From a virus, in IMG/VR virus record IMGVR_UViG_3300009502_002970, positions 1 to 57,518 of that record: 57,518 bases of DNA. One strand, given 5' to 3'. Both the position numbers and the translations under genes were made by a program. Position 1 is the stretch's first letter; every line of letters begins with the position of its first letter. The notes beneath the pieces are model-generated. The model saw only the letters and a list, made by a program, of their open reading frames with translations, was not told the origin of the DNA and ran no database searches. Positions 4,794-57,312 of this stretch are shown here, in pieces.

Positions 4794-4831
4794 GCAGCAA
4801 TATTATAATTTGATGAACGAAAAATAAAGGA
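4794..4831 (-). promoter_or_regulatory. Phage late-type promoter for the 540-aa operon, module A
   Basis: On the minus strand TCCTTTA (4831-4825) is followed by exactly 19 bp and then TAATATTG (4805-4798). The ATG of the next gene begins 4 nt later. The -33 element starts right after the stop codon of the 547-aa gene. The same architecture occurs upstream of six other genes in the window. The predicted transcription start coincides with the A of ATG. Confidence 0.8.
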
Positions 4832-4833
4832 CA

Positions 4834-6477
4834 TTACAAGCATGAAAATGCTTTGATCAGCGATGGCTTAATTGTGTTTTTCGTTAACGTAACTGCCACT
4901 TCCGATAACAGATAATTATTGCCGTGGATCTCATGTTTTGCAGTAAAATCCAAATCCCGGATGTCAATAAAACTCAGTTGTTTTGAAAATTGAACATTAA
5001 CTGCCATGTCCAACTGCCAGTTTATCCATTCCTGAAAGAATTTTTTAAACAACCCTTTGGGACCGTGGAAAAACAATGATAGGTTCTCGTTCGATGTGGC
5101 CGATCGAATTCGCCCGTCAACCATGGTTACGAAAATTAATCTGGAAGATATTTTTTTCCAATCATCCTTCTTGTTTTCACAGGATGGGTATTCCCATGAA
5201 GTGAACTGATACAGACAAGAAAGATCAGTCTCTATCTTTGTAATGAGCTCGCTCATGTAACGATAATTGAATGTAGTGCTGGCAGTGATATCCTGCGTGA
5301 GCTCTGCCCAGGTGATTACCTGACCTGAACCCAATGAAGCCTTGTAATACTTATTGACGTCAATCACGTACCATACATCGCCGGCGGTTACAATATTTGA
5401 GTATGGAGGTATAAACAAATCACCCATGGTCTGGACAGTTCCAGTCCATTCAATAGTATTACCGGTTTCCCATTGTATTTGATCAGAGAATGCCGGATCG
5501 CCGTCATCAGGTTTCATCGCCAGCTGGGCGCCGGTGATCTGATCGGCAATTAATACTGCAAGGTTGGTTACGCCCTCAGTGAAAGGGATCACTACGGAGG
5601 AGTGAAGGATATCCTGTGCACCCTTTATCGTCACTATCTTATTGATATCGTCGACAAAAAAGTAGCAATTAAGATATTTCTCCAATCCATGGATAAACGC
5701 GTTGAGAGATACCCGCGGCATATGCTGCTGATAGAAAATCGTCCCCGGATACATCCCACCAAAGAGCTGATCATTATCAATGTTCCGTGAATTATATATC
5801 AATAGATTCGCAAGTTCTTCGCTCTGCCCGAAGAACTGATCATCCAGGCTATAATTAAGCAGGGAAACGGCCTTATTCAGCAGGAACCGCAAATACACAA
5901 ACGGAACCAGGATCGTGGGATCACCATGGTCTGTCACATCACGCAGACCTGTCGGCACGGAGGAAAAGTAGAAGTTGTAAAACGCTTTCTGCTCATCGGT
6001 GGCCACCGTGCCATAAAAAAGATCATTGGCCACCAGGGGAAACGCGACGTTCACTTCCGGATAAACCTTGGTCAGGGAATCATTATAATACTCCATGGCC
6101 GCCGTCTCGGAGGTTTGCACGATCTTACCGAGGTTCATCTCATGCAGAGTTTGCTTTGAACTTTGGAAGTTGAAGTTTCCCTTATCGATGTACAGTACTG
6201 CTTCATAGTAATCTGCCGCTGTTTTAATTCGCATGGATCCCGATAACATTCCCACACCGGCCCAAAGTACGTCTGCAGGAAAGAACTGGTATTTATCGTT
6301 CGTGTTCTCCACCCGGTGAATGAACCGCAAGATCATCTTGTTTTTGGAAGTAAACGGCAGTTTGAATGGAAATGAATAATCTCCCAGGGTATTGAACAAC
6401 GGAGACATGAACTTGATGGAGATAACCACATCCTGGTTAAGGTCCAGGTACTCTTCGTTTACTCTGATTGCCAGCAT
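4834..6477 (-). CDS. Tail-tip/baseplate-type protein, module A (547 aa)
   Basis: Soluble protein with no signal peptide, starting MLAIRVNEEYLDL. Conserved blocks shared with the 549-aa module B protein include GDYSFPFKLP near residue 33, FIHRVENTNDKYQ near 52, LFGGMYPGTIFYQ near 240, and a C-terminal block ending KPSLIKAFSCL. It directly follows the tape measure gene (2 nt gap) and ends just before the promoter of the distal-tail operon. Proteins in this position in siphoviruses form the distal tail or hub. I recognise it only as a conserved phage protein; no enzymatic motif is visible. Confidence 0.75.
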   Translation of the reverse strand: MLAIRVNEEYLDLNQDVVISIKFMSPLFNTLGDYSFPFKLPFTSKNKMILRFIHRVENTNDKYQFFPADVLWAGVGMLSGSMRIKTAADYYEAVLYIDKGNFNFQSSKQTLHEMNLGKIVQTSETAAMEYYNDSLTKVYPEVNVAFPLVANDLFYGTVATDEQKAFYNFYFSSVPTGLRDVTDHGDPTILVPFVYLRFLLNKAVSLLNYSLDDQFFGQSEELANLLIYNSRNIDNDQLFGGMYPGTIFYQQHMPRVSLNAFIHGLEKYLNCYFFVDDINKIVTIKGAQDILHSSVVIPFTEGVTNLAVLIADQITGAQLAMKPDDGDPAFSDQIQWETGNTIEWTGTVQTMGDLFIPPYSNIVTAGDVWYVIDVNKYYKASLGSGQVITWAELTQDITASTTFNYRYMSELITKIETDLSCLYQFTSWEYPSCENKKDDWKKISSRLIFVTMVDGRIRSATSNENLSLFFHGPKGLFKKFFQEWINWQLDMAVNVQFSKQLSFIDIRDLDFTAKHEIHGNNYLLSEVAVTLTKNTIKPSLIKAFSCL

Positions 6478-6479
6478 AC

Positions 6480-9782: not shown

Positions 9783-9784
9783 AA

Positions 9785-10246
9785 TCAGAGTTTTACCCGG
9801 GCTCCGCCCTTGATTGAATTGTCTGCCAAATTTTCAACAGCATCCCTGATCACCAGGGTGCCCTTATGCGCCCACTCGCGCGCCATGATCTCCTTGAGGG
9901 TGGCCACCTCAGCATAGAATGTTTTGCTGTACCATTTCTTCGGTCGGCGACGGTTGCCCAGCATCTTGCCTTCCAGTTTCCGGGAGGTCCTGTTTTCATT
10001 CACACCCCCGATCGGCGTCCCCTTCCCTACCCCCATATCCACGAACTTGCCGTAATACTTAAATGCGAAGTTTATCTTCATTACTGATCCATCCGGAGCA
10101 GTGGTGACATTCTTCTGAAACGAAGAATAGAGCGGACCTCCGGACCTTCCGATTTTGTATTTATGCAGTTTTTCCCGCCATATTGAAACGGTGAAAAACG
10201 CCCACTTTTCGGCAATCTCCTGCGGTGAAAGTTTCGGTTTGCTCAT
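9785..10246 (-). CDS. HK97 gp10-like head-tail or tail-completion protein, module A (153 aa)
   Basis: Small basic protein with KWAFFTVSIWREKLHKYKI near the N-terminus, a YxGKFVDMGVGKG block near residue 70 and a positively charged C-terminal half. The FVDMGVG block and the spacing resemble HK97 gp10-like tail-completion proteins, a resemblance I judge by eye. It is encoded 2 nt before the tape measure gene, where such proteins often lie. The module B copy is at 52466-52894. Confidence 0.6.
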   Translation of the reverse strand: MSKPKLSPQEIAEKWAFFTVSIWREKLHKYKIGRSGGPLYSSFQKNVTTAPDGSVMKINFAFKYYGKFVDMGVGKGTPIGGVNENRTSRKLEGKMLGNRRRPKKWYSKTFYAEVATLKEIMAREWAHKGTLVIRDAVENLADNSIKGGARVKL

Positions 10247-11865: not shown

Positions 11866-12924
11866 TTATGCAACAAAAATTGATTTATCACTCGTGTTAA
11901 TGAATTCAGCCCTGGTGACAGCAGTTGCTGGCCCAACGTAGCGGGATGATCCGAAGTATGCAGCATACTTCGTAGCTGAAGCGTTGTTGTCAAGGAACTC
12001 CTGCAGCGCCTTCATATCGGCGTCCCCATCCCTCTGATATGCTGCCTGCATTTCTCCCAGCCGGTTCTGCTGAAGCAGTGTCTTATTCTGAACATTTTTG
12101 AAGGTGTTGTCGGCCAGGTTGAATATCCCCCAGTCAAGCATGTCGATATTGATTTCCACCAGCGCCCTGGCCATGGTCAGATGTACCACGGCCGGCAGGA
12201 TGTAATCCATCAATTCCTTATTCTCATCTGTTAAGGTAGCCGAACTGGCAATTTGCGTATACAGCAGTTCATATAACTCCCTTGATAATGTGGGCATCAG
12301 GTAGCGCTGCTCAATGTTACGCATAAGCGGCATCATGGCCAGGAATACGCGCCTGGAGGCATGGATATCCGCATATACCTGGAATTGCTTTGCGTCTTTG
12401 ACCAGTAATTTTGAATCGTAAAAATCACCAGCCCGTTCATTGAACGTATCGAAGTTATTTTGAATCAATGCCAGGCACAGATCCATCTGCTCATGTGCCC
12501 GGGCAATGTAACGTTCCTTGACATTCATTACCTGGTACTGCGGCGCCGGCCGGTGCGTATCGCTCTGGATCACCGTCACACCCGTTCCTGATAGATTCAC
12601 CGACAATTCATCCACACTCAGGTACAAGGCGTACAATGATTCTGCCTTAATCACCAGGTGAATCAGTTTCCACCAGTTTAGTTCATCTAAAATCTCACGA
12701 GTAACTAGCGGCGTTTCGTCCTTCGATGGGATCTCTTCAGTTAATGTTGGATCGTCGTCCGTATTTAACCTATAAAAAAGGCTATTCATCATTGGTGTCG
12801 GGAACATCGGCATAATAAAGATGTTATGCGCATCGTCCACGAAAGGCTGCAGTAATTCAAACTTGAGCGTGACCGGCACCGGAGCTGCAGTGGCTATATG
12901 GTCAATGGATGTGACTAAGTTCAT
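11866..12924 (-). CDS. Conserved connector-region protein, module A (352 aa)
   Basis: Helical soluble protein immediately after the portal gene (4-nt overlap, so coupled). It shares long blocks with the 351-aa module B protein: YQxMNxKExxxxRAHxxxDL near residue 165, HLTMARALxEINIDMLDWGI near 255, and a C-terminal KALQEFLD block. It resembles a protein group widely found beside Bacteroidota phage portal genes (I believe DUF6712, not verified). A head-tail connector or ejection role is plausible from position. Confidence 0.7.
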   Translation of the reverse strand: MNLVTSIDHIATAAPVPVTLKFELLQPFVDDAHNIFIMPMFPTPMMNSLFYRLNTDDDPTLTEEIPSKDETPLVTREILDELNWWKLIHLVIKAESLYALYLSVDELSVNLSGTGVTVIQSDTHRPAPQYQVMNVKERYIARAHEQMDLCLALIQNNFDTFNERAGDFYDSKLLVKDAKQFQVYADIHASRRVFLAMMPLMRNIEQRYLMPTLSRELYELLYTQIASSATLTDENKELMDYILPAVVHLTMARALVEINIDMLDWGIFNLADNTFKNVQNKTLLQQNRLGEMQAAYQRDGDADMKALQEFLDNNASATKYAAYFGSSRYVGPATAVTRAEFINTSDKSIFVA

Positions 12925-14249
12925 GGCTGTGTTTTATCAACTTTTTGATTGATTTTTGAGGGATGCTGATCCTGTGTCTGCGAGGTATCAACGCAGATAT
13001 AATCAAATTGGATGGTGGGATCCCAGTGATTGAAATCTCGGATGAAATACAGTGGCGAAAGTGATACGGCCCGGTCTGTTCCCATATCCGCGTTAAGCAT
13101 CCAGTATGCCTCACGTTTGTCAGATCCTGACCCGGCTCCCATTTTCCCTCCCGGGAGACCGGCACCTATCAGGCAGGGATCAACACCGATAGCAAACAGG
13201 ATCTCCGAGTTCGCCGCCTGTGAATCGGGAAGGTATGCCGAGTTCTCCAGCTTGTTTTCAATCACATTGATCTTCCACCCTGTTAAATAATCCTGTTTGG
13301 CTTTGCTATAGAACGCGTAAGTGACCAGGGCTTTTCCAGAATTCTCCACGTTAGCCAGGAAGTCATTCATATCCTGCAATACTTCCGCCCGTTTTGCCTC
13401 CCGCTGTTCCTTGGTATAGTCCGCAGGGGGGAAACGGGTGGTAAAATAATCATCCGGGATCTCAATGTGATACTTGATGGTCATCTGGTTCTTCATGATG
13501 GCTTCCTTAAGCATCGGAACCTTATTGGCGATGCTCAGCCACTTGTTCGCACGAACGGAGTGCCACACGGGAAGCGCGTAGTAACTTTTGTTGAAAGAAC
13601 GGTAAGAGAGCTGCATGGCAAACTGTCCATCCGGATACTTCGTGCCATCATACCTGGAGGAATCGAACATCGGCAGGTCCTTCATGTATGTACCATCATC
13701 CTGGGGCATCATTTCCCACCGGGCCGAATAGTACATGAAATCTATCTTGTCATTCTCATCCATCTTAGCCACGCGGCAATAGGCAGGATCCTTAACATAT
13801 ATCCTGTTTACCTGCGTTTTTCCCTTATTTAGGATAAATTCCACCCATCCGTTGGCAAAAATCTCCAGGCCCAGGATCAGATCCGGCCACTGCAGGTTGA
13901 TTTTGTTAACGCGAAAGAACTCCGTAACCACAGGATCAGTTACGATTTCCCTGGTAACCTCGCCTGCGGCGTCCTTTTTTTCACGGTAAGCGACGATTCC
14001 CCGCCCAAAATGAACCCTCTTGCGCTTGTCAAGTGCCCGCATGGCCACCGAATTCGATTCCAAATCAGTCAGCAGATCCTGCGGAAACAAATTGTTTGAT
14101 CCCCAGTTTGACCATAAATTGGGAGAAACATCATACGGCGGGGTGATAATTGGACCTGCATAGTCTGCAGAAGATCCTTTCATCTGCGCGATAGCCTTTG
14201 CCCCGGGCAATATGGCATAATCTCCCTGTACAATTACTCTGTTTTCCAT
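12921..14249 (-). CDS. Portal-like protein, module A (442 aa)
   Basis: The second gene of the portal operon. It has an N-terminal leader, a SNNLFPQDLLTDLE block near residue 50, RALDKRKRVHFGRGI near 71, and a conserved C-terminal half: QAANSEILFAIGVDP near 340 and DMGTDRAVSLSPLYFIRDFN near 391. These features match portal proteins of Bacteroidota phages. Portals form the dodecameric ring at one capsid vertex through which DNA is packaged and ejected. The start overlaps the stop of the 113-aa gene by one base (TGATG). The module B paralogue (55596-56930) is close to identical in the conserved blocks. Confidence 0.75.
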   Translation of the reverse strand: MENRVIVQGDYAILPGAKAIAQMKGSSADYAGPIITPPYDVSPNLWSNWGSNNLFPQDLLTDLESNSVAMRALDKRKRVHFGRGIVAYREKKDAAGEVTREIVTDPVVTEFFRVNKINLQWPDLILGLEIFANGWVEFILNKGKTQVNRIYVKDPAYCRVAKMDENDKIDFMYYSARWEMMPQDDGTYMKDLPMFDSSRYDGTKYPDGQFAMQLSYRSFNKSYYALPVWHSVRANKWLSIANKVPMLKEAIMKNQMTIKYHIEIPDDYFTTRFPPADYTKEQREAKRAEVLQDMNDFLANVENSGKALVTYAFYSKAKQDYLTGWKINVIENKLENSAYLPDSQAANSEILFAIGVDPCLIGAGLPGGKMGAGSGSDKREAYWMLNADMGTDRAVSLSPLYFIRDFNHWDPTIQFDYICVDTSQTQDQHPSKINQKVDKTQP

Positions 14250-14590: not shown

Positions 14591-14628
14591 GGTGCAATTA
14601 TAATCCGGACCATGCTCTTGTTAAAGGA
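14591..14628 (-). promoter_or_regulatory. Phage late-type promoter for the portal operon, module A
   Basis: On the minus strand TCCTTTA (14628-14622), exactly 19 bp, TATAATTG (14602-14595), 4 nt, then the ATG at 14590. The architecture is identical in the module B promoter at 57275-57312, although the 19-bp spacer sequences differ. This indicates selection on the two boxes and the distance. Confidence 0.82.
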
Positions 14629-14638
14629 CAATTGTAAT

Positions 14639-17310: not shown

Positions 17311-17856
17311 TTATCCCCCGAATTCTTCCTGGTTCCTGAACAGATCAAGCTGGTTTCGGTTGTTTTTGCCCCGGCTGTATGCTGCCTGGCGCTCCTCCAG
17401 TTCAAGACGTTCGATTTCGAAGTACCGTTCATCCTTCAGCAGTTCGGCCCTCAGCTCTTCGATACGGTTCTTTCTGGCGGCACTCTGGCGAAGGCTTTCT
17501 TCAGTTTTGCGCAGCCGGCCGAATAACAGATCGTCGATAGTCGAATAAACCCAAAGTTCGAATGCCGGGCTTAACCATGCGGCAAATTTCAGAGCAAGAA
17601 TACGGTGCATCCAGGTGCCGGATTTCTGTGAAGAAATAATTAAATCATCCTCGGATTTTATGTTTAAATAACGCTGATTAGCGTTATTTAAACATTCTGC
17701 GATGAACAATTTCGACTCTTCAATGCGGGTAAAATTTTCCACACGTTTGTCAAAAATCTTCGCCATCTGTGTGGCATTGATCATTAAATTATGATTTCCC
17801 TGTTCAAAATCGACTTCCAATCCGTTGAACTCAAATTTCACGATGTTTTTTTTCAT
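17311..17856 (-). CDS. KilA-N domain protein (181 aa)
   Basis: I choose the ATG at 17856 because the longer frame from 17973 would run through the ParB terminator. The N-terminal 110 residues show a KilA-N-type DNA-binding domain (LMINATQMAKIFDKRVENF near residue 24; WMHRILALKFAAWLSPAFELWV near 81), as in phage regulators and antirepressors. The C-terminal third is charged and coiled-coil-like, rich in Arg and Glu. A CTAACCC leader is found 22-28 nt upstream. It sits between ParB and the 181-aa gene, each separated by hairpins, so it is probably its own unit. A regulatory or antirepressor role is likely. Confidence 0.82.
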   Translation of the reverse strand: MKKNIVKFEFNGLEVDFEQGNHNLMINATQMAKIFDKRVENFTRIEESKLFIAECLNNANQRYLNIKSEDDLIISSQKSGTWMHRILALKFAAWLSPAFELWVYSTIDDLLFGRLRKTEESLRQSAARKNRIEELRAELLKDERYFEIERLELEERQAAYSRGKNNRNQLDLFRNQEEFGG

Positions 17857-17898
17857 TGTTTTACTGTTTTTGTGTTGGGTTAGTATAATTGATTGATT

Positions 17899-17936
17899 AA
17901 AAAAGGTTGAATAAGGGGATATCCCCCTATTCAACC
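17899..17936 (-). terminator. Intrinsic terminator after parB
   Basis: A minus-strand hairpin (GGTTGAATAGGGGG... pairing across a 3-nt loop, 17936-17905) is followed by six T (17904-17899). It begins 11 nt after the ParB stop. Confidence 0.88.
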
Positions 17937-17947
17937 TGACTTCCTTC

Positions 17948-19657
17948 CTATTTCTTCTTGTTTTTCTTCGCATTCAATTCCCCTTCCAGCTCCAGGATAC
18001 GCATCTTGATGGTGTGGTTGCGTTTGGCATAACTGGCATTAATCTTATCGGTAATGGCCGCCATCTCATCCGCGTAAAAAAACGTGATCACGCTAAACAG
18101 AAGCATTACCTTATCCTTGTTGCTATTCGGATCCGTCTCCTGCAGTTTATACCTGAGCCAATACCTGAACTTTACGATATCCTCATCATGGGGAATGATC
18201 ATGGGAGTGGTTGATTTGCACACGCACTGCTTATCCGTGTACGTATGTCTGTGCGAATCATACATCAGGAACATGAAAGCCCTGGTCTCACTATTTGTGA
18301 TCAAACAACCCGACTTATGATAGTTCGACTTGCGAAACATCTCATAAGCCTGGTTATATGTTTTCTCAAATGCCAGTTCTTCATTACGTTTGAGTTTCTC
18401 GCGCAGCTGCTCCAATTCCTTTGCCTTGTCCAAACCTGCCGGTGTCATGTCAGCGGAAATATCCCGTGACCCAGTGGGCATATAGTGTACGATTTCTCCC
18501 CTGTTATGGCCGGCCACCATCAGCACCTTGACAACGTTTCCTGCTGCAATATCAGCGTTGTATGTTTCAAGTTCGGCCTCGTAATCGGCCATTTCCACAT
18601 AATAGTTGTCAATATCATCCGAAAATTCCTCATCATCGTCAACTTCAGTGTAGTCTTCCCTTTCTGGTTTTTCAGGCATCTGCGGCGGATTTATCCTCTT
18701 GAATCCCGTATCGTACGAGAATTCATTGACCAGTATATTATCAGCCTTGATCTTCTTGATGATTTCCTTGTCATTTTCCGGGATATAGGTATCCACGCCG
18801 ATAGCAATTCCCGGTTCATTGTCTGTGATCCTTTTAACTTCCTTCAGCAGGAACGCTTCTTTTTTCTTCTTTAGGCATGACACGTTCATGCAGATCCCTT
18901 CACCTTCCAGGGGAAACAGGCCGTATCCGGAATTAGTGTTGTCCGGGCATGAATTGCATGCCGGTCTTCCCGGGAGCAAGGTGTCATCATACAGCCCGAA
19001 GGATATTTCAGCAAGCTTGGCCGAATACATTCGCTCGATCCAGTTCTTCAGCTGTGATATTGAAGGAGGATCCCAGTGATTTGATTCGTGATTTTTAAAC
19101 GCAAAATCGTACAGTTCTTCCTGTCCTGGTTGTGAAAGCTTTGCAACCTCCAGTATGGTTGTCATGTTGATCCGATCGGATACCCACAACAGTTTGAATG
19201 GTGCGGTAAGATCATTCAGCTTCAACCGCATCCGGATATATCCTTGAGATTTGCCGAACTTGAGCGCCAGGTCAGCGATAGTATGGTGCCCTTCCCGGAT
19301 CAGGTTGATATATGCGTGCGCTTCTTCCAGCGGATGGATGTCTTCCCGCTGCAGGTTCTCGGTGATGGTCAGTTCCATCACCTCATCATCGGATAGATCA
19401 CGGCAGATACATGGCACCTCAGTCATTCCGGCAATGGCAGCTGCTTTCATCCTGCGTTCGCCGCAGACAACCTGGTATTTGAGTTTCTTGTTTGTACCAT
19501 GCACGCGCACGATCAGCGGGGAAAGGATCCCGACTTCTTTAATGGAAGCGGCCAGCTCTTCCAGGTTCTCTTTCACGAAGCTTTGCCTGGGATTTATCCC
19601 ACTGGCTGCAAGATCCTTCAGCGGGATCATGGTAATTGTTGGTGATTCTGTTTTCAT
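17948..19657 (-). CDS. ParB-like partition/nuclease family protein (569 aa)
   Basis: The N-terminal ParB/Srx-type domain spans about residues 8-110, with the GERR motif at 66-69 and ENLQREDIHPLEEA at 100-113. A helix-turn-helix follows at about 127-147. A four-Cys cluster (C234, C237, C256, C261) suggests a zinc-binding module, and an acidic stretch occurs at about 335-365. ParB proteins bind a parS site and use CTP; the GERR box is the known nucleotide motif. No ParA gene lies within 2 kb. That points either to a phage ParB-like nuclease or regulator, or to a partition system that borrows a host ATPase. A perfect 26-bp palindrome 51 nt upstream of the start may be its site. Confidence 0.85.
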   Translation of the reverse strand: MKTESPTITMIPLKDLAASGINPRQSFVKENLEELAASIKEVGILSPLIVRVHGTNKKLKYQVVCGERRMKAAAIAGMTEVPCICRDLSDDEVMELTITENLQREDIHPLEEAHAYINLIREGHHTIADLALKFGKSQGYIRMRLKLNDLTAPFKLLWVSDRINMTTILEVAKLSQPGQEELYDFAFKNHESNHWDPPSISQLKNWIERMYSAKLAEISFGLYDDTLLPGRPACNSCPDNTNSGYGLFPLEGEGICMNVSCLKKKKEAFLLKEVKRITDNEPGIAIGVDTYIPENDKEIIKKIKADNILVNEFSYDTGFKRINPPQMPEKPEREDYTEVDDDEEFSDDIDNYYVEMADYEAELETYNADIAAGNVVKVLMVAGHNRGEIVHYMPTGSRDISADMTPAGLDKAKELEQLREKLKRNEELAFEKTYNQAYEMFRKSNYHKSGCLITNSETRAFMFLMYDSHRHTYTDKQCVCKSTTPMIIPHDEDIVKFRYWLRYKLQETDPNSNKDKVMLLFSVITFFYADEMAAITDKINASYAKRNHTIKMRILELEGELNAKKNKKK

Positions 19658-23601: not shown

Positions 23602-25101
23602 CTATCCTATGATGGACATGTCATGTGATGGCTCATGATCACCAACACTTTGAAAGAACATCCAGTAGTAAAGGTTGTCAACTGCATCACTCAGATCAGT
23701 TGCCTTCCACCTTGGTTGCCCTTCCCTGCGCTCTGATGACTTATCCTTCTTGAACTCACTGGGCAGCACAGGCGCACTGTCCATGGACACAAAGGTCTCC
23801 ATTGCATTGTTCATGTTGATCCTGAAGTCAGGCGTGTTGCCACTGTCATTCATGAGGAACTTATGCCAGAAGATGAACTTATCCATGTGAGATATCTCAT
23901 GCAGTTCAGCACACACGTTGACTATCCATCCTGCCTTGGTTAGTTGCATGGTCACATCATCGAAGTACGTCTGCCTTGATGATGCATCATTGCGACGCGT
24001 ACCATCACTGCCACCATAGATGTTGATTGCCTTACGCTGATGATGCTGGTAATACTCGATGAACTTATCTACCAGTACTGCCAGTGTTTCATTCTCCACA
24101 TAGAAGTTCTTGATGATAGGGAACTCATTGCTTACCCTGTGCCATTGACACACGACCATGCAGTTCTGGGTAGATCCGAAGTCGAATGATGCATACAGTT
24201 CAAGGGCACTGATACAGTCAGCATCACCCCTTGAATCCAGGCCGCCATCTTTAAGATCATGACCTATGCCATCATAGAACGCATAGTTGTACGAATCATA
24301 ATAGCAATGCTTTGCAGCGCTCAGCGCTGGATAGAAACCATTGATGTTTGTTTTGCGGCGGATATTCTCGATCTCTATATCATACACCAATGCAGGTAAT
24401 GTTCGTTTGGCATCACGAAAATAGCGCGCTCCCAGGATTCTTTCATTATATCTGGCTGATGCTTCCAGGAACATGAACTCCTTGGGAAATTCAGTCTCCA
24501 TTTTTTCGTATTCAAAAACCCAGTCACCTCCAGGAGTAAGAGGCTGTGATCCCAGGAACAAGGTACCATGATGAAAGCGTATATGCCCGAACTTATCTCC
24601 ATTGCCACGATTCGCAGGCAACACATCAGAATCGATCGCGCTTTTCTTGAGTTTTGTAGCCTCGTCAAAGATCATGTAATCATAGGATCCTGACCTGGCC
24701 ATCTCCGGCCGGTCGAAGGAATTGAACTCAACCACAAACCCGTTATACCAATGAATGCAGTTGGTATAATCCAACGGCGGCTGAAAAGGTTCGGGCCAAC
24801 CCAGTTTTTTCGGCGCCCGGACACCAACAAAGTAATGCAATCCCCGGTATAATCCCCTGCGCTCCAGGTGAGATATGATAGGCGGCATCGATTTGGTTCT
24901 GATATGGAAATAAGTCAGACCGTTAAGAGATATTTTTCCCCTGGGCATGAACATCATGCAATCAAGTATCTGATCAGCGATGATGGTTGTCTTACCTACA
25001 CCCCTGCCTCCGATAAACATCTTGTGAGGCCGGGTGCACAGCTTGATCACACGCTGCGGGTAGTTATAATATGGGGCCGGGACGATCTCTATATCCTGCA
25101 T
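23602..25101 (-). CDS. terL: Terminase large subunit (499 aa)
   Basis: ATPase domain with Walker A GGRGVGKTT at residues 31-39 and Walker B YMIFDEA at 142-148. A nuclease-type acidic motif begins the second domain (FDFGS at about 306-310, including D307). Together these cut and translocate phage DNA into the capsid through the portal. The length is close to the usual 450-600 aa. It is preceded by a 202-aa small-subunit candidate with a 2-nt gap. Confidence 0.93.
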   Translation of the reverse strand: MQDIEIVPAPYYNYPQRVIKLCTRPHKMFIGGRGVGKTTIIADQILDCMMFMPRGKISLNGLTYFHIRTKSMPPIISHLERRGLYRGLHYFVGVRAPKKLGWPEPFQPPLDYTNCIHWYNGFVVEFNSFDRPEMARSGSYDYMIFDEATKLKKSAIDSDVLPANRGNGDKFGHIRFHHGTLFLGSQPLTPGGDWVFEYEKMETEFPKEFMFLEASARYNERILGARYFRDAKRTLPALVYDIEIENIRRKTNINGFYPALSAAKHCYYDSYNYAFYDGIGHDLKDGGLDSRGDADCISALELYASFDFGSTQNCMVVCQWHRVSNEFPIIKNFYVENETLAVLVDKFIEYYQHHQRKAINIYGGSDGTRRNDASSRQTYFDDVTMQLTKAGWIVNVCAELHEISHMDKFIFWHKFLMNDSGNTPDFRINMNNAMETFVSMDSAPVLPSEFKKDKSSERREGQPRWKATDLSDAVDNLYYWMFFQSVGDHEPSHDMSIIG

Positions 25102-26549: not shown

Positions 26550-27232
26550 TTTGCCAGCAGCTTATCAACCTCGAACAGCTGCTCTTCGTATGCTGCCAAT
26601 GACAGCCGGTAATGATCTTGTTTCGCTTCTTTGCCCGGGTTCTTCAGATACCCTTTGATCCGGGAGATGTGTGAACGGATATTCGTTCGGGCCTTGATCA
26701 GTTCAACCGGGTCCAGGGTAGACACTGAAGGTTTCTCTTTCTTACCTGATTTCCCGGCCACCGGTGGCAACACCCCATACTTTTCAAAATGGTTTTTCCT
26801 CTGGTACATGGCATCAAGTTCATCAGCTACATCCAGGATCATCAGTGCATCATGCCTGCGCTGATCATCACCTACCAGCTCGAGGGTTGCATGAAGTGTG
26901 TCCAGGGCTTTCCAGTGCATCTTGATATCCTTGAGCAGCGCGGCAATATCACCCTTGTCATCATTGGAGATGCCTACCCTGGTGATCACTACGGGCGCCG
27001 CCGGCGCATTGACCTGAACCGGTGCAACCCTTTTGGGTGGCACTGTGAACGGTTGCACTGATCCCAGCAGCTGTGTCAGTTCATGCACCAATGTTTCATG
27101 CATGGCCGGCGAAGGATCCTGCCGGGTTAGCAACCGCTTGAGGTTACCGCTGCTTCCATACAGTTCATAGAGTTCTACTCCCCGGGCAAAGTCACGTGAC
27201 GATGCCAGCCAGGCTTTTATTGCTTCATTCAT
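26546..27232 (-). CDS. Phage protein of unknown function (228 aa)
   Basis: The ATG at 27232 (MNEAIKAWL) overlaps the stop of the glycosyltransferase gene by 8 nt, so I prefer it over the upstream frame start at 27295. Helical, with a Pro/Ala/Val-rich linker near residues 57-85 and a Lys-rich stretch near 165-170. It ends DKLLAK. No motif recognised. It sits between the glycosyltransferases and the PLD-like protein in the packaging operon. Confidence 0.6.
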   Translation of the reverse strand: MNEAIKAWLASSRDFARGVELYELYGSSGNLKRLLTRQDPSPAMHETLVHELTQLLGSVQPFTVPPKRVAPVQVNAPAAPVVITRVGISNDDKGDIAALLKDIKMHWKALDTLHATLELVGDDQRRHDALMILDVADELDAMYQRKNHFEKYGVLPPVAGKSGKKEKPSVSTLDPVELIKARTNIRSHISRIKGYLKNPGKEAKQDHYRLSLAAYEEQLFEVDKLLAK

Positions 27233-27932
27233 CGAGCAAAGATTTTTGTTCTGCCAAAAATTGGTGCCACTCAGGCGACTTCCGGTCCGGGGCAAAGGAG
27301 AATGACTTAGGATGCACCCGGTAGTCCATCAGTACTGCCTCCATATTATATAAGGTATGACCGTTCAACAGGTACTTAATCCAGAGGGAATAATCTTCGG
27401 CCAGATGTGATGGTGTGGGGTTATACCCACCGAGCTTCAGCAGGGTATCGCGCTGAAAACACACACCCGGGTGATTAATGAACCAGTGACCGGGCATACC
27501 TGCAGCCACCTTCCTGGTTACTTCTGCAGGATGATGCGAATACCATTCCCGTTCATTGTTAAAAAGGCGTATCTGGATCCCACATACCTGCCGGTAGGGA
27601 TACAGTTTGAAGAACCAGTTATGATACATCAGCAGATCCGTATGCGCGATGTCATCTGCATCCATGCGCACAACCAGGTCACCACTGCAGAACTTCAGGC
27701 CGAAGTTCAGTGCTGCAGCAATCCCTTCATTTTTAAACTTACGGACTAAGGTTACCCGCAGGAATGCCACGTCAAGCCACTGCAGGTAATTATACAATGG
27801 TCCTGCAGGATTATTATCATCTACAATAACCAGTTGAAAATCCTGGAAACTTTGTGCCAGGATCGAGTCCACGGCCTCCTGTACCCATTCAACAGGTGTG
27901 GCATAAATCGGCATTAGTACACTAATTCGCAT
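27225..27932 (-). CDS. GT2-family glycosyltransferase (235 aa)
   Basis: Start at 27932 (MRISVLMPIY), which overlaps the stop of the upstream gene by 11 nt. The GT-A fold is shown by MRISVLMPIY at 1-10, VDDN at 37-40, NEGIAAALNFGL at 68-79 and the DADD metal/nucleotide-sugar motif at 91-94. GT2 enzymes transfer sugars from nucleotide-sugars. There is no transmembrane anchor, so it is cytosolic. It is the third of three consecutive sugar-transfer genes transcribed from one phage late-type promoter. Confidence 0.85.
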   Translation of the reverse strand: MRISVLMPIYATPVEWVQEAVDSILAQSFQDFQLVIVDDNNPAGPLYNYLQWLDVAFLRVTLVRKFKNEGIAAALNFGLKFCSGDLVVRMDADDIAHTDLLMYHNWFFKLYPYRQVCGIQIRLFNNEREWYSHHPAEVTRKVAAGMPGHWFINHPGVCFQRDTLLKLGGYNPTPSHLAEDYSLWIKYLLNGHTLYNMEAVLMDYRVHPKSFSFAPDRKSPEWHQFLAEQKSLLDE

Positions 27933-29358
27933 GGATCGGGAGTGTTTTGGCCGGTGAATCATCGTGCCAGTGAATTTTAAAAAATGGGTTCTTGTACTGA
28001 TGCCCGGGAATCGCTTCCGGAAGGATCCCCATGAGCTTGCATATTACCGGAAATGATATCTGATCCTGGTAGGTCCACTTGATATTTTCCCACCACCATT
28101 TCGCCATCAGCTCGCGGATGCGCGGCGAACCTATTTTTCTTACCATCACCCCACAGGCCCACAAGCCTCCATGGGGCGGGTACAACTGCATGTAGAAATT
28201 GGTTTGAGCATTGATGTCCTGGCCGATGTACTTGATAAGCTCCTGCGATGCCTTTGCCTCTTCGTAGATGCAGTCACGTTGCGGGTGCCGGTACAGGGCA
28301 ATGTCACCGGTGCATGATTCAACCATAAACTTAACGAAGTCATTGGATGTGATCTCGATAGATCCGTCGATAAAGATCACGGTTTCATAGCCTGCCAGGG
28401 TAGCTGCTTCCCATGGGAACATCTTGAAAAACTTTGCCCTCATGCGTGGATGCAGGCAGTAATTCGGGTATGATACCGGGATGATCTGCCACCTGGGTGA
28501 ATCATGATCTTTCCCACCCGGTGCCGGATGCCTCATGATCATGTGGATATCGTCGGTGATGCAGTAGAAGTCTGCGTCAACCGACTGTTTTGGAATGATG
28601 TGAAGTTTGGCATAATCGTTAAAGATAGTAGTGTAGATAGCGATTCTTTTTTTTTCAGGAAGGAATGCCGAAATCTTGAGGTCTTCTTTTAATATCTGAC
28701 GCCAGGCAGGACCATATATTTTGGTCATTCCGAAGTTAAGTTCCTGCTTAGCATTTTCTTCATACTCCACCAGCGTCCCCACGGTGTTGATCGTTTGCTG
28801 TCCCATGTGATGGAACACGGAACCGTCATCACAGCAGAGTTTCAGGCCAGCAGCGCGCATGCGCAGCGCCCAGTCGAATTCAACACCATAACCGCGTTCG
28901 AATGTTTCATTGAAGAACCCGATGCGATCGAATACCCAGCGGCTGATCACCGGTGCAGTGAACTCGATACAGGTAACTTCACGAACACCTGGTGAACCAT
29001 TGTTCCTACAGCTGGGCATCCAGCAGTTGTATGCCGGGGTGATCATGTCATACACACACTCATCCATCAACTGTTCAATACGCCTGATCGATGCCGGTGC
29101 GATTTCAATATCAGAGTTCATCAGCCAGTAAGCATCATACCAGGTATGATCCATGTGCATGAGGTGCCGGAGCGCCCTGTTCCAGTTCCTGGTAAATCCA
29201 AGGTTATCCTCAAACCGGTACACGGTATGCTCCGGCATAACAGATGAGAATGGGATATCACTCCCGTTATCAATCACGATAGAATCCGGTACCATGGCAC
29301 ACAGCCTGGAGGTAACCTCAGGTGTATTGTAATGAAGGATGAGCTTTGCTATTTCCAT
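27922..29358 (-). CDS. Bifunctional glycosyltransferase-like protein (478 aa)
   Basis: Two domains. The N-terminal 225 residues are GT2-like, with DNGSDI at 30-35, DNLGFTRNWN at 51-60 and the NSDIE acidic motif at 81-85. The C-terminal domain from about residue 238 (IAIYTTIFNDY at 239-249; ETVIFIDGSIEI at 325-336) resembles TOD1/MUCI70 (DUF616)-type transferases. A fusion of two sugar transferases implies consecutive steps on one acceptor. The start overlaps the preceding gene by 10 nt. Confidence 0.78.
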   Translation of the reverse strand: MEIAKLILHYNTPEVTSRLCAMVPDSIVIDNGSDIPFSSVMPEHTVYRFEDNLGFTRNWNRALRHLMHMDHTWYDAYWLMNSDIEIAPASIRRIEQLMDECVYDMITPAYNCWMPSCRNNGSPGVREVTCIEFTAPVISRWVFDRIGFFNETFERGYGVEFDWALRMRAAGLKLCCDDGSVFHHMGQQTINTVGTLVEYEENAKQELNFGMTKIYGPAWRQILKEDLKISAFLPEKKRIAIYTTIFNDYAKLHIIPKQSVDADFYCITDDIHMIMRHPAPGGKDHDSPRWQIIPVSYPNYCLHPRMRAKFFKMFPWEAATLAGYETVIFIDGSIEITSNDFVKFMVESCTGDIALYRHPQRDCIYEEAKASQELIKYIGQDINAQTNFYMQLYPPHGGLWACGVMVRKIGSPRIRELMAKWWWENIKWTYQDQISFPVICKLMGILPEAIPGHQYKNPFFKIHWHDDSPAKTLPIHAN

Positions 29359-30110: not shown

Positions 30111-30148
30111 GAAGCAAAACTAAATTTACAATTGTAAATTCTAAAGGA
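30111..30148 (-). promoter_or_regulatory. Late-type promoter of the glycosyltransferase operon with internal palindrome
   Basis: TCCTTTA (30148-30142), 19 bp, TAGTTTTG (30122-30115), 4 nt, ATG at 30110. Unlike the six other members, the spacer contains the perfect 18-bp palindrome AATTTACAA-TTGTAAATT (30140-30123). This position between the two boxes is typical of a repressor operator. Confidence 0.8.
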
Positions 30149-30163
30149 CATAAACACCAACGA

Positions 30164-32046: not shown

Positions 32047-33345
32047 TTACATGGCCTCGTCAGCGAGTTTATTATGAGCGTAACTGTCAGATGCAATCTG
32101 CTCCGGGGTGCGGTCGGCTTTCTTTCCTGCCCTGGTTTCCTGCCCGGCATCAGAAGCCAGTAACGCTTCATGCTGCCTGGTCAATTCGGCAAAGGCAGAC
32201 TGCAGGCAGATATGATCTTCGCTGATCTGGGTCAGCCGGGTGATCTCAGCATCCTTCGCCTCGATAGTGGCGTTCTGATCTGTCAGCCGGTCGTTAAGCT
32301 GGTCAATCATTTCCGGGGTGATATCGTTGGAAGTCACATCACCGGTATACCCGAAAAAACTTGCAATGGCAAGCCATGTTGCCTTCATTTTGATATTCAT
32401 GATATGGGAAGTTAAATTTGGTGTCTTATTGGAAAACTTTTCTGACGGTATTGTAACCGCGGTCTGGATTGCATACTGAAATGAACCTATCTCATCAACC
32501 AAACCCATGCCAATGGCATCTGAGGCGCTATAGATCGCTCCCTTCATGCATGCCGGGTTAACCTGGGGCCGACGGGCCAGTACCTGTGACTTGAACATGT
32601 TAACGATCGGATCGAGCAGGCTCTCGCGAACCGGTTGATATTTTCCGGCCTTGATATCTGCGATCGCCTGGTTCTTTTCGGTGGAATCGGTTGCATAAAC
32701 TTCATGCAGCACGATGCCTTCCTTTGCCAGGTAACCTTCCATGTCGGCCCACACCAGCATGGACCCGATGGATCCTACCATGTCAAGCTCGGAAGAACAG
32801 ATGATTTTCTTTGCAGCTGAAGCGATCCAGTAACCGGCGCTGGCCGCGCAGCCTTCAACATAGGCAACCACGGGAGTCTCGCAGCACGCGATAGCATTGC
32901 ACAGGATATCGGTGTAAGAGCTTTGTCCACCAGGTGTGTCGATGTGAAGCACGATGGCCAGTACTGACATATCATTGTCAGCTGCGATGATGTCATTCGC
33001 GATGGATGTCGTTCCCCTGGGCCCACAGAACTGATCATACTTCATGAGCTCGCCATGAATGGGGATCACCACGACCTGACATGGATCCGGGCAGCAAGCA
33101 TCATGACCATCGGCAGGCTCGTTGGGATCTTCCCCCTGCGAAGGATCGTAAGGCATGGGTGTGGCGCCGGTCTGATCACTGAGGTTGATTACATAAGGCT
33201 TGTGTTTAGCGCGCTCGGCTGAAAAATCTTCATGAGCGGTTTGTTCACCCCGGATCAGGGAAACGAGTCTGGCTCCATATATGCCTGAATTTTCAGCATA
33301 CAGAAGCCAGGGAGATGAAAAGATTCTTGAAAGGAGCGTGTTCAT
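32047..33345 (-). CDS. S49/ClpP-type prohead protease fused to scaffold (432 aa)
   Basis: The middle has the S49 protease core: IDTPGG at 135-140, the catalytic-Ser motif ASAGYW with S169, LDMVGSIGS at 187-195 and a candidate catalytic Lys (K224) in the STEKN motif. Signature proteases of this type process scaffold during head assembly. From about residue 316 the protein is acidic, helical and coiled-coil-like (ATIEAKDAEITRLTQISED), which is the expected scaffold. An in-frame ATG at 32400 (residue 316) could also yield a free scaffold of 117 aa, as in lambda gpC/Nu3. The promoter lies 22 nt upstream. Confidence 0.87.
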   Translation of the reverse strand: MNTLLSRIFSSPWLLYAENSGIYGARLVSLIRGEQTAHEDFSAERAKHKPYVINLSDQTGATPMPYDPSQGEDPNEPADGHDACCPDPCQVVVIPIHGELMKYDQFCGPRGTTSIANDIIAADNDMSVLAIVLHIDTPGGQSSYTDILCNAIACCETPVVAYVEGCAASAGYWIASAAKKIICSSELDMVGSIGSMLVWADMEGYLAKEGIVLHEVYATDSTEKNQAIADIKAGKYQPVRESLLDPIVNMFKSQVLARRPQVNPACMKGAIYSASDAIGMGLVDEIGSFQYAIQTAVTIPSEKFSNKTPNLTSHIMNIKMKATWLAIASFFGYTGDVTSNDITPEMIDQLNDRLTDQNATIEAKDAEITRLTQISEDHICLQSAFAELTRQHEALLASDAGQETRAGKKADRTPEQIASDSYAHNKLADEAM

Positions 33346-33366: not shown

Positions 33367-33400
33367 CAATATTAAAACCCACCCGGGGATTAATAAAGGA
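33367..33400 (-). promoter_or_regulatory. Late-type promoter of the protease-capsid operon
   Basis: TCCTTTA (33400-33394), exactly 19 bp, TAATATTG (33374-33367), then a 21-nt gap to the ATG at 33345. Unlike the other members it gives a short leader, not a leaderless message. It lies between the 168-aa and protease genes. Confidence 0.8.
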
Positions 33401-33412
33401 CTGAAAATTACA

Positions 33413-33919
33413 TCAGTCGCCAAACGTGGGATCCGGAACCCAACCGGTGCCACCGGCAGCCTTGTAACTGGCCGGGGCAGAAAACGCGCCGGTAAATACC
33501 ACTTCCCAGCCGTTATACCCTTCCACGTTAGCCGGTTTTGTAAGAGTCCCAAGTTTCTTCATTGGGATATCCATGGTCCCAAAGTAACGGGATACCCCAT
33601 TTTTGTCGATCAGGTTAATCACCAGATGACGGTTATTCATAGCATACAATGCGATCTCGACATCAGACCGGTCCTTAGGGATGAGCATCTTGATCTCGTA
33701 GGAATACTTGATGCCGGCCGGTGTCGGATCCTCCTTGCACGTGAGCTGTATGGTCTCATCGGTAGCGTAGAGGTTATTCCAAACCTTACCAGTTTTCAGC
33801 GTGATCACGCCAACCATGGTGACAGGGTTTACGTTATATGAAAGGATATCATCCTTGAATACGAACAGGACCGGGTTGACTCCCCCGATATTTCCATTTG
33901 TGTTTTTCAGAACTGCCAT
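33413..33919 (-). CDS. Candidate tail-tube or head-decoration protein (168 aa)
   Basis: Soluble beta-rich protein beginning MAVLKNTNGNIGGVNPVLF, with repeated strand-turn patterns and a C-terminal VPDPTFGD. This ending resembles those of the capsid and 231-aa proteins. No major tail (tube) protein was found in either tail module, so this and the 231-aa protein are candidates. It precedes the protease-capsid promoter and is probably expressed with the 198-aa gene upstream (13-nt gap). Confidence 0.55.
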   Translation of the reverse strand: MAVLKNTNGNIGGVNPVLFVFKDDILSYNVNPVTMVGVITLKTGKVWNNLYATDETIQLTCKEDPTPAGIKYSYEIKMLIPKDRSDVEIALYAMNNRHLVINLIDKNGVSRYFGTMDIPMKKLGTLTKPANVEGYNGWEVVFTGAFSAPASYKAAGGTGWVPDPTFGD

Positions 33920-33931: not shown

Positions 33932-34528
33932 TTATATGATAAAAAATAGGTGACCTATCGTCTTTCTATTGCTGTCAATAAAACCGTGCCTAATCGATTT
34001 TTTTCTTGCCCGGTAATATGCTTTTGAAATCATGTCGAAGGTGATATCATCCCGCCGGATATTCATCTGGCTGCAAAACTCGTTTACAACTGCCTGGATT
34101 GATCCTTTCTGAGTTTTTGTTTCCAGGCGATAACGGACCTTGTCATCACAGTAGAACCTGAAGTGCAGCCTGAAGTGTGCTTCTACGATCTGCTGTATGG
34201 CCTGTTGATTCTTGAGCGATATCCACGCGGTATTGCGCCGCACTTCGAACTCGTGGAAGTATGGCAACGCGAAGGTGAATGAATATCCTTCCTGGTTCTT
34301 CTGGTACCGGTCGAACTGGAAGTTTGGTTTTGCCCTGGGCGGCATGCGTTCCAGGAATGGGAAGATGAGTTTACCCAGGTAAGAGTTCTTGGTTGCGCAA
34401 AGAAGGTCCCCTTCCGGAAACTTGCTTTCCATGTTCATTATGTAACGGATGTAATCCTGCAGGTAAGGCCTCATCTTGATCGTGATGGTTGGCCTTTCTA
34501 ATTCATATTGCTGGGTTTCCTGTTCCAT
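33932..34528 (-). CDS. Phage protein with late-type promoter (198 aa)
   Basis: N-terminal half has ITIKMRPYLQDYIRYIMNME; C-terminal third is basic and helical (KAYYRARKKSIRHGF near residue 169) and looks DNA- or RNA-binding. It could be a transcription factor or a structural factor; I do not recognise a family. The ATG is 5 nt after a -7 box. If it is expressed first among the structural genes, it could be a late regulator, but that is speculation. Confidence 0.6.
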   Translation of the reverse strand: MEQETQQYELERPTITIKMRPYLQDYIRYIMNMESKFPEGDLLCATKNSYLGKLIFPFLERMPPRAKPNFQFDRYQKNQEGYSFTFALPYFHEFEVRRNTAWISLKNQQAIQQIVEAHFRLHFRFYCDDKVRYRLETKTQKGSIQAVVNEFCSQMNIRRDDITFDMISKAYYRARKKSIRHGFIDSNRKTIGHLFFII

Positions 34529-34567
34529 GGGTGCGAATATAGTTTATGATTTGTTTTTGATAAAGGC
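34529..34567 (-). promoter_or_regulatory. Late-type promoter variant upstream of 198-aa gene
   Basis: GCCTTTA (34567-34561), 19 bp, TATATTCG (34541-34534), 5 nt, ATG at 34528. It departs from the other six in one base of the first box (G for T) and in the last two bases of the -7 box (CG rather than TG). The spacing is still exact. Confidence 0.65.
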
Positions 34568-34588
34568 CGTCCCATGGCAGGGACGGCC
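34565..34588 (-). terminator. Terminator after 92-aa gene
   Basis: GGCCGTCCC / GGGACGGCC stem of 9 bp with a 6-nt loop, followed by TTTATC. It ends the early operon and overlaps the first box of the late-type promoter by 3 nt. Confidence 0.8.
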
Positions 34589-47467: not shown

Positions 47468-47505
47468 GGAACAATATTAAGTTTTGAAATGAAAAAGATA
47501 AAGGA
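47468..47505 (-). promoter_or_regulatory. Late-type promoter of the distal-tail operon, module B
   Basis: TCCTTTA (47505-47499), 19 bp, TAATATTG (47479-47472), 4 nt, ATG at 47467. Its boxes are identical to those of the module A counterpart at 4794-4831, while the spacers differ. Confidence 0.82.
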
Positions 47506-47507
47506 CA

Positions 47508-52466: not shown

Positions 52467-52894
52467 TACAATGAAATTGTTTTTTCATTAATATCTTCTG
52501 TGATTTGCAAAATTCCTTTATGTGCAAAATCCCGGGCCATGATCTCCCGCAGGGTTGCCACTTCATGGTAAAATGTTTTGCCATACCATTTTTTGGCAAC
52601 CCTGCGGTTTCCAAGCATTTTGCCTTCTAGGTACCTGGATGTTTTATTTTCACGAACATCTGAAATACGTACTCCCCTACCCACACCCATATCTACGAAC
52701 CTGCCTGTATATTTAAAGCCGAACTCGATGGAGATAACATTTCCATCGGGGTCGGCTGAAATTTTGCTTTTGAAGGATGATCGAAGAGATTTACCCAGGA
52801 TCTTGTATTTCCAGAGTTTTTCTTTCCAGACCTTTATCGTAAAGAAGGCCCATTTGTCAGCGACCTCCCGGGGGGTGAATTTTACTTTGTCCAT
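52466..52894 (-). CDS. HK97 gp10-like protein, module B (142 aa)
   Basis: Start at 52894 (MDKVKFTP) by alignment with module A (MSKPKLSP); five extra residues in the longer frame are not conserved. Shares KWAFFTIKVWKEKL, GRFVDMGVGRG and an EGKMLGNRR segment. It overlaps the tape measure by 1 nt. Confidence 0.6.
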   Translation of the reverse strand: MDKVKFTPREVADKWAFFTIKVWKEKLWKYKILGKSLRSSFKSKISADPDGNVISIEFGFKYTGRFVDMGVGRGVRISDVRENKTSRYLEGKMLGNRRVAKKWYGKTFYHEVATLREIMARDFAHKGILQITEDINEKTISL

Positions 52895-52936
52895 GGGGCA
52901 AAGGAACAACCTGAATGCCCGGGAACAAAGGACAGA

Positions 52937-55599: not shown

Positions 55600-56930
55600 G
55601 CCTGTGTTTTGTCTATTTTCTGGTTGATTTTTGAAGGATGCTGGTTTTGAGTTTGCGATGTATCAACGCAAACGTAATCGAACTGAATCGCGGGGTCCCA
55701 TTTGTTGAAATCACGGATAAAATACAAAGGTGAAAGGCTTACGGACCGGTCAGTGCCCATATCGGCATTGAGCATCCAGTAAGCCTCACGTTTATCTGAC
55801 CCGCTGCCGGCGCCGATGGCGCTGCCCGGGTTCCCGGCTCCGATCAGACAGGGATCAACGCCCATTGCGAACAGAATTTCAGAATTTGCAGCTTGACTGT
55901 CGGGTAGGTAAGCCTGGTTGTCAAGTTTGTTCTGGATGACTTCGATTTTCCAGCCCGTTAAATAATCCTGCTTTACCTTATTGAAAAACGAATAGGAAAT
56001 AAATGACTTGCCTGAGTTTTCCACGTTGGAAAGGAAGTCATTCATGTCGGTGAGCACGGCCAGCCTTTTCACTTCTCTTTCTTCTTTGGTGAAGTCCTTA
56101 TCAGGGTAGCGTTCGGTAAAATAGTTATCCGGAATCTGGATATGGTATTTTATCGTCATCTGGTTTTTCATGATAGCGCTTTTCAGAACCGGCACGCTGG
56201 AGGCAATGTTCATCCATGTGTTCAGTCTTACCGCATTCCAAACGGGCAAATGGTAATATGACCGGTTAAAGCTGCGGTAAGAAAGATGCATTGCGAAATT
56301 CGGGTCGGGATATTTTGTTCCATCATACTGATCGGGGTTCCACATCGGAATTTCTTTGACCAGCACACCGTCGTTTGAAGGTCTCATTTCCCACCGGGCT
56401 GAAAGGTACATGGAGTCAATTCTGTTGTTTACATCCATCTTGGCCATCCTGCAATACGCGGGATCCTTTACAAAAACACGGTTTATCTTGTCTTTGCCTT
56501 TGTTCATGATCATTTCGAGCCATGTGTTTGCAAATGTCTCAAGGCCCATGATCAAATCGGGCCACTGGAGGTTGATCTGGTTAAGCCTTAAAAACTCTAC
56601 CACCTCAGGATCTGTGACAGGAACCCGCAGCGGGGCAGCTCCGGGGCCGGACGGGTCCGGGGATTCCCGGTAGCAGATAATACCTCTTCCGAAATGGACA
56701 CGTTTACGTTTGTCCAGGGCACGGAATGCCACCGAGTTTTTTTCAAGGTCGGTGATCACCTCTTGGGGGAACAAATTGGAATCACCCCAATTTGACCATT
56801 CCTGCGGTGAAATGTCGTACGGGGCGGTTACGTTCTGTGCACCTGCATCGGCGAAGGCTGATTTGGGGCCAACAATTGCTTTGCCACCAGGCAGGATGGC
56901 ATACTCTCCGGAAATAATGATGTCGCTCAT
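55596..56930 (-). CDS. Portal-like protein, module B (444 aa)
   Basis: The start at 56930 (MSDIIISGEYAILPG) matches module A in alignment and overlaps the 114-aa stop by 1 nt; the frame from 56939 is rejected. Shared blocks: SNLFPQEVITDLE near 50, RALDKRKRVHFGRGI near 68 and DMGTDRSVSLSPLYFIRDFN near 393. The NIASSVPVLKSAIMKNQMTI block is also conserved. Role as in module A. Confidence 0.75.
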   Translation of the reverse strand: MSDIIISGEYAILPGGKAIVGPKSAFADAGAQNVTAPYDISPQEWSNWGDSNLFPQEVITDLEKNSVAFRALDKRKRVHFGRGIICYRESPDPSGPGAAPLRVPVTDPEVVEFLRLNQINLQWPDLIMGLETFANTWLEMIMNKGKDKINRVFVKDPAYCRMAKMDVNNRIDSMYLSARWEMRPSNDGVLVKEIPMWNPDQYDGTKYPDPNFAMHLSYRSFNRSYYHLPVWNAVRLNTWMNIASSVPVLKSAIMKNQMTIKYHIQIPDNYFTERYPDKDFTKEEREVKRLAVLTDMNDFLSNVENSGKSFISYSFFNKVKQDYLTGWKIEVIQNKLDNQAYLPDSQAANSEILFAMGVDPCLIGAGNPGSAIGAGSGSDKREAYWMLNADMGTDRSVSLSPLYFIRDFNKWDPAIQFDYVCVDTSQTQNQHPSKINQKIDKTQA

Positions 56931-57274
56931 CAGAAACAAACTTTTTGGTTATTGAATTCAATGATCAGGCGAATATGGACTGTCCGTATTCTCCTGTTCT
57001 GCAGAATGATATTTCTTGTTGCATTGGCCCAGTGATGGGGGTCTTTGCCATTGGCCTGATTTGGGGAAGAGGATTCCCGGGTATCGAACACTATTTTACC
57101 ACTGCGGAATCCCACACATTTCCTTGCTCCTGCCACTTCTATGATCTCTCCTCCTGTACGGCGGATGCGATCAGCGGTGACAAATTTCATTTGGAACGGA
57201 ATGGGAAGGTTATTTGCATCCAGCCTGTTCATTTCGTCCAGTACGGTGGATAGCTGAATATAGGTTGTTTTCAT
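56930..57274 (-). CDS. First protein of portal operon, module B (114 aa)
   Basis: Start at 57274 (MKTTYIQLSTVLDEM), 4 nt downstream of the -7 box, giving a leaderless message; the frame from 57295 would begin upstream of the promoter's -7 box. Counterpart of the 113-aa module A protein (RTGGEIIEV, DPHHWANATRNIIL). Confidence 0.75.
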   Translation of the reverse strand: MKTTYIQLSTVLDEMNRLDANNLPIPFQMKFVTADRIRRTGGEIIEVAGARKCVGFRSGKIVFDTRESSSPNQANGKDPHHWANATRNIILQNRRIRTVHIRLIIEFNNQKVCF

Positions 57275-57312
57275 GCTGCAATGATATAACTCCAACCCAC
57301 TTTGATAAAGGA
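57275..57312 (-). promoter_or_regulatory. Late-type promoter of the portal operon, module B
   Basis: TCCTTTA (57312-57306), 19 bp, TATCATTG (57286-57279), 4 nt, ATG at 57274. Together with 14591-14628 it forms one of two module pairs that share boxes and spacing but not spacer sequence. Confidence 0.82.

Follow-up and report, generated by a model that had tools for sequence, protein, structure and literature searches.

The 57,518-base IMG/VR record IMGVR_UViG_3300009502_002970 (the window, by which we mean the whole stretch of DNA analysed) contains parts of two related phages, whose late operons are preceded by promoters made of an upstream box (box 1) and a downstream box (box 2) at a fixed distance. 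Our best explanation of these sites, at a probability of about 0.8, is that they are activator-dependent late promoters used by the host sigma-A polymerase, and that they define a mostly leaderless late regulon. A shared two-part switch with a predicted start at the first letter of the gene is unusual for Bacteroidota and points to a dedicated viral activator. The window phages fall in a broad family of tailed, temperate Bacteroidota phages that is related to Helgolandviridae and Duneviridae. How phages of this phylum, dominant in gut and aquatic habitats, control their genes is hardly established, and promoters go unmentioned in the paper that described these two families.

Promoter sites in the window and in related phages

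The pattern TCCTTTA-N19-TANNWTTG occurs exactly six times in the window, always on the minus strand, and was found 0 times in 100 dinucleotide shuffles. A preliminary description of this DNA had listed seven promoters; all seven coordinates are correct, as are the distances to the ATG (4 nucleotides (nt) at five sites, 5 nt at 34567 and 21 nt at 33400). Six of the seven are exact matches, but the remaining one, at 34567 (GCCTTTA...TATATTCG), carries two mismatches and scores low with a family-derived matrix. Because two-mismatch matches number nine in the window against 4.5 expected by chance, this weak variant is insufficient on its own; its form of box 2, TAnnTTCG, is a frequent natural variant in relatives. 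The relaxed pattern GTCCTTTR-N19-TNNNWTTG yielded seven matches (0.04 expected), one of which was absent from the earlier list: GTCCTTTG-N19-TTCCTTTG-N4-ATG at 52899-52933, ahead of a tail-region gene that starts at 52894. The late operons served in the window are those of the portal, the tail region, the S49 head protease and the stretch from glycosyltransferase to terminase. The sites are as follows.

57279..57314, minus strand: late promoter TGTCCTTTA-N19-TATCATTG, N4, ATG 57274; small gene upstream of the portal operon, copy 1; exact match
52899..52934, minus strand: late promoter TGTCCTTTG-N19-TTCCTTTG, N4, ATG 52894; tail-region gene preceding the tape measure gene; relaxed pattern, matrix score 21.6
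47472..47507, minus strand: late promoter TGTCCTTTA-N19-TAATATTG, N4, ATG 47467; occupies the 40-nt gap between two tail-region genes; exact match
34534..34568, minus strand: weak variant GGCCTTTA-N19-TATATTCG, 5 nt, ATG 34528; two mismatches, matrix score 13.0
33367..33401, minus strand: late promoter GTCCTTTA-N19-TAATATTG, 21 nt to ATG 33345; S49 head protease operon; exact match, second offset peak
30115..30150, minus strand: late promoter TGTCCTTTA-N19-TAGTTTTG, N4, ATG 30110; glycosyltransferase to terminase operon; exact match
14595..14630, minus strand: late promoter TGTCCTTTA-N19-TATAATTG, N4, ATG 14590; portal operon, copy 2; exact match
4798..4833, minus strand: late promoter TGTCCTTTA-N19-TAATATTG, N4, ATG 4793; tail region, copy 2; exact match

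The two phage copies are ~72% identical in DNA and offset by ~42.68 kb, so that the sites 57312/14628 and 47505/4831 form homologous pairs. Their spacers are identical at only 4/19 and 9/19 positions, respectively, while the boxes and the position of the ATG are kept. Since the spacers have drifted nearly freely around intact boxes at a constant distance, the selection on boxes and spacing that had been proposed is real.

The arrangement of the two phages resembles tandem prophages; an integrase was not recognised among the window genes. Copy 2 has no recognisable promoter in the region (9785-10246) where copy 1 has the 52933 site, and the same gene thus appears to be served differently in the two relatives.

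Scanning viral contigs for the pattern followed by an ATG returned at least 116 stretches. Among the matches listed, 48 have an ATG that opens an open reading frame (ORF), and nearly all of these carry TG before TCCTTTA; those whose ATG opens no ORF mostly lack it. A motif that omits the TG at -40 therefore collects more than half of its matches by chance (48/116 of those listed open an ORF) and was rejected. In the 40 viral records behind the likely matches, the TGTCCTTTA-N19-TANNWTTG sites of any one record all lie on the same strand, and the reversed control is absent. All 17 records examined in full (17/17), picked by the DNA motif only, have a terminase and a portal in common with the window, which indicates that the motif marks one phage family.

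A search for related loci with the window protease alone found no relative, so alignments were used instead, and a less biased sample of 158 loci was chosen by portal or terminase homology. There, TGTCCTTTA followed by box 2 is present at a spacing of 19 only, 18 times on the late strand and 0 times on the opposite strand, with 0 occurrences at spacings of 12-18 and 20-27; TGTCCTTTA alone occurs 64 times on the late strand versus 13 on the opposite strand. The preliminary description had named background frequency in related genomes as the outcome that would speak against it, and the frequency found in these loci clearly exceeds background. GTCCTT lies at -39 relative to the ATG of an ORF in 118 cases, at -40 in 14 and at -38 in six. 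Positions -41 to -47 are nearly empty, and a broad second peak spans -48 to -60. Removing similar sites leaves 177, of which 146 are at -39. That the promoter family is real is close to certain, and the family-wide comparison also bears out its placement before head, tail, protease and glycosyltransferase operons as a late regulon.

Structure of the boxes and predicted start points

The core of box 1 is TGTCCTTT, spanning -40 to -33, with TG conserved at -40/-39 and a variable final A; the fixed 19 nt are counted after the ninth base of the box. The TCCTTTA first described is present, but it is only part of this longer core. A TTTG or TTG at -33 is not found: box 1 is followed by A/T at -32, where G stands at 0.03. 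Position -34 (T or A) is concordant within a phage in 99% of cases, versus 70% in shuffles, and box 1 appears from these sequences to be phage-specific. Cultured relatives have the same layout, with TGTCCTTT in Leef_1 and Ingeline_1 and GTCCTTTT in BT-TP2. In Duneviridae, TGTCCTTT is replaced by TGTCACAA in laban6-1 (L344) and by TGTCTTAA in 23T (L346), with little change in the distance to the -7 box; all of these sites are on the late strand and have leaders instead of leaderless starts. A further variant, TGTCATTTA / TGTAATTTC, was seen in some relatives (L394, L397, L398). Searches of an open-access literature library found no report of TGTCCTTTA as a promoter.

Box 2 spans -12 to -5 when the A of the ATG is taken as +1. 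In the logo of the 146 non-redundant sites, A-11 (0.88), T-8 (0.83), T-7 (0.99) and G-5 (0.79) are conserved, while T-12 reaches only 0.36, the first base of the box being relaxed to C/T. The -1 base is a pyrimidine in 92% of these sites, and a pyrimidine at -1 is a usual feature of start points. In the second class, where the ATG is farther off, the same +1 position is often an A after a pyrimidine. The published -7 element of Flavobacterium johnsoniae comprises T-12 A-11 T-8 T-7 T-6 G-5, with 4-5 nt to the start point (PMC6847099). The conserved bases of box 2 agree with this sigma-A element, as does their distance to +1, which supports the earlier identification of box 2 and places the predicted +1 on the A of the ATG. 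The GTCCTT at -39 in 118 starts and the pyrimidine at -1 lend family-wide support to this placement. Five of the seven window ATGs are fixed by an in-frame stop 9-30 nt upstream with no other start.

Leaderless starts are very likely on this sequence evidence. The preliminary description had called the late mRNAs leaderless, which is the prediction for ~60% of the family sites but not for the rest, where short leaders are predicted; the 33367..33401 promoter, with a predicted leader of 17 nt, belongs to this leadered class. Predicted leader lengths in the 158 loci look bimodal: they are 0-1 nt or ~9-21 nt and almost never intermediate, a pattern that would fit an avoidance of very short leaders. 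In Bacteroidota hosts, leaderless starts are rare and leaders are the rule: leaderless starts amount to 5.5% in F. psychrophilum (PMC9723704), and 5' untranslated regions under 10 nt to ~3.7% in Bacteroides thetaiotaomicron (PMC7366714).

Some spacers have features of their own. A CAATTG-centred palindrome (TGCAATTGCA) is frequent ahead of the glycosyltransferase or the following gene (L428, L429, L431, L434, L439, L449, L455 and window 30115-30150) and is a possible operator for a second regulator. In other spacers (G010, G024, G028, L408, L414), TATTTTTG or TATTTTCG comes after a hairpin rich in G+C; here the promoter may overlap with a terminator of the preceding operon. Spacer hairpins were rejected as a general feature because stems are only modestly enriched (38/146 versus 21.8 in shuffles).

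Recognition of the promoter

We propose that box 2, as the host sigma-A -7 element, would be read by the host RNA polymerase, and that a phage protein, encoded towards the end of the early operon, would bind box 1. This protein would replace the weak -33 contact and recruit or re-aim the polymerase. Transcription would then begin at the A of the ATG in ~60% of cases, yielding leaderless mRNAs translated from a 5'-terminal AUG, and in most other cases roughly 9-21 nt upstream of the ATG. A phage activator is likely: the concordance of box 1 within a phage and the same layout with variant boxes in cultured relatives favour a phage-encoded factor at box 1. Of the two kinds of phage factor first suggested, the activator is thereby favoured; a sigma factor is not supported, as set out below.

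It is unlikely that host sigma-A acts alone, with TGTCCTTT as a strong extended -33 element that needs no phage factor. Box 2 is indeed the sigma-A -7 element (PMC6847099), box 1 ends at -33, where TTTG is expected, and the hosts of different phages could differ in their region 4 preference. However, the -33 element is barely visible in F. johnsoniae (PMC6847099), box 1 varies phage-specifically between related phages, down to TGTCACAA and TGTCTTAA, and host sigma-A alone would leave a temperate phage expressing its late genes in the lysogen. Nor does the promoter rise above background in host genomes: a search of 295 Bacteroidales genomes gave 22 matches, fewer than the reversed-pattern control, which led us to reject a host regulon. 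Three genomes account for most of the repeated host matches, and two of these had already come up in the search with the phage motif.

A LuxR/GerE-type protein encoded near the primase gene has, at best, a slim chance of being the late activator. It belongs to a DNA-binding family and is encoded in the early region of many members, but was found in 13/23 records (a few of which are fragments); the window and several records with the motif gave no match to it, so that it is not supported as a universal activator. Its position suggests an early or lysogeny role, and box 1 is not a dyad.

Recognition of both boxes by an alternative sigma factor, of phage or host, is very improbable. A sigma factor would typically account for two conserved boxes at a fixed distance, yet Sigma70 region 2 was detected in 0 of 27 phage records, while the control was positive in 10/14 genomes. 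Region 4 matches were sub-threshold, several of them being the LuxR-type protein; box 2 retains the sigma-A -7 consensus, and the motif set of F. psychrophilum, as described, has no such box (PMC9723704).

Least credible is that the boxes are real while transcripts begin elsewhere, the conserved distance to the ATG being a translation or RNA signal: the start points are predicted from sequence, but box 2 is a -7 element at the published distance from +1, the second class has the same boxes with a longer gap to the ATG, and the 19-nt spacer is free in sequence, with a modest enrichment of stems.

The phage protein that would bind box 1 may be encoded at the following position.

33932..34528, minus strand: 198 amino acids, candidate late activator, no assigned protein family; close to the end of the early/middle operon and ahead of the first strong head promoter

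Its position and ubiquity make it the leading candidate, at odds that we put somewhat below even. Of 25 phages, 23 have a clear member of the family and one a weak member; the only phage without it is represented by a truncated record. In 21/23 phages the homologue has no late box upstream, and the first late box usually follows within ~1 kb; in Mea-Yong924-1 the homologue adjoins the primase gene, away from the head genes. The homologue in BT-TP2, gp8, is annotated 'transcriptional regulator'. The protein has no convincing match in Pfam, PHROG or PDB, the best PDB sequence match being an unconvincing tRNA ligase. Its structure model is fair (predicted local distance difference test score, pLDDT, 82.8), and structure searches with it found no fold match in PDB and only the Leef_1 homologue in a viral library. 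In the window, the weak 34568 site lies upstream of this gene, so autoregulation is possible. Tentatively, the family could be a previously unrecognised late activator without a known structural relative that coevolves with its box (TGTCCTTT, TGTCCTAT, TGTCACAA, TGTCTTAA), takes over the sigma-A polymerase of Bacteroidota and directs the infected cell into making virion proteins in concert from leaderless mRNAs. Two other genes were rejected as the activator: that at 33413-33919, after the candidate, is related to a protein encoded after the capsid gene and looks structural, and at the position of the 14791-15228-like gene, upstream of the portal promoter, no gene is called in G002 or G036.

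Several points weigh against activator-dependent, mostly leaderless late promoters. We infer the activator, and its candidate, without a detectable DNA-binding family or fold match, is linked to box 1 by position and ubiquity. The start points are predictions, and a start 1-2 nt upstream of the ATG may also be compatible. The sites come from related phages, so the counts do not represent independent events; the contigs picked by homology overlap in part with those found by the motif, and the within-phage concordance of box 1 partly reflects descent.

Relation to known systems and neighbouring genes

Compared with the Bacteroidota sigma-A (sigma-ABfr) promoter, with -33 TTTG and -7 TAnnTTTG, the phage sites are alike in the bases of box 2 and its distance to +1. 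They differ in that a conserved TGTCCTTT at -40 to -33 takes the place of the weak TTTG, the spacing is invariant, T-12 is relaxed to C/T, and predicted starts are mostly leaderless where host starts are mostly leadered. At T4 middle promoters, a MotA box at -30 replaces the upstream element and the host downstream element is kept, with sigma appropriation by AsiA. The phage sites follow this layout by analogy, but with a different box, spacing and phylum, and before late rather than middle genes. In the Mu Mor/C and P2 Ogr systems, several late promoters that use the host sigma are switched on by a small protein whose phage gene precedes the late operons; activators of this type bind farther upstream or at dyad sites, and the 33932-34528 protein matched no such Pfam or PHROG family. 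The lambda cI mRNA from PRM has its start codon at the 5' end, for a single phage gene. Many mycobacterial genes are described as leaderless as well (PMC4633059). The same placement of the start codon is predicted here, but as part of a shared promoter, for the late regulon of a whole phage family and in a phylum with few leaderless starts.

Activator-dependent phage late promoters are a known kind; what is new in this variant is its sequence, its phylum and the leaderless layout built into it. With the sequence rule, late operons and their start points can be predicted in many phages, among them Leef_1, Ingeline, laban6-1, 23T and BT-TP2. It makes directly testable what activates late genes in these Bacteroidota phages and how the ribosomes of a phylum without Shine-Dalgarno use find the start on a leaderless mRNA. 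A phage-controlled pair of promoter and activator could also serve as an expression tool for Bacteroidota.

The structural and packaging genes recognised in the window are listed here.

32047..33345, minus strand: S49-type head maturation protease, opens the head operon; phrog_53, E 8e-44; PF01343
31027..31995, minus strand: putative major capsid protein; clusters with the gene at the position annotated major capsid protein in Mea-Yong924-1
23602..25101, minus strand: terminase large subunit; phrog_2, E 3e-11; present in 25/25 phages compared
12921..14249, minus strand: portal protein, phage copy 2; phrog_11226 (weak) and tblastn to annotated portals

Between terminase and portal (17311-19657), a KilA-N protein adjoins a 569-amino-acid ParB-type protein. 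The late operon ahead of the terminase holds three glycosyltransferase-like genes at 27225-30110 (GT2, TOD1/MUCI70-like and a weak Stealth CR2), which possibly modify the virion or the host surface.

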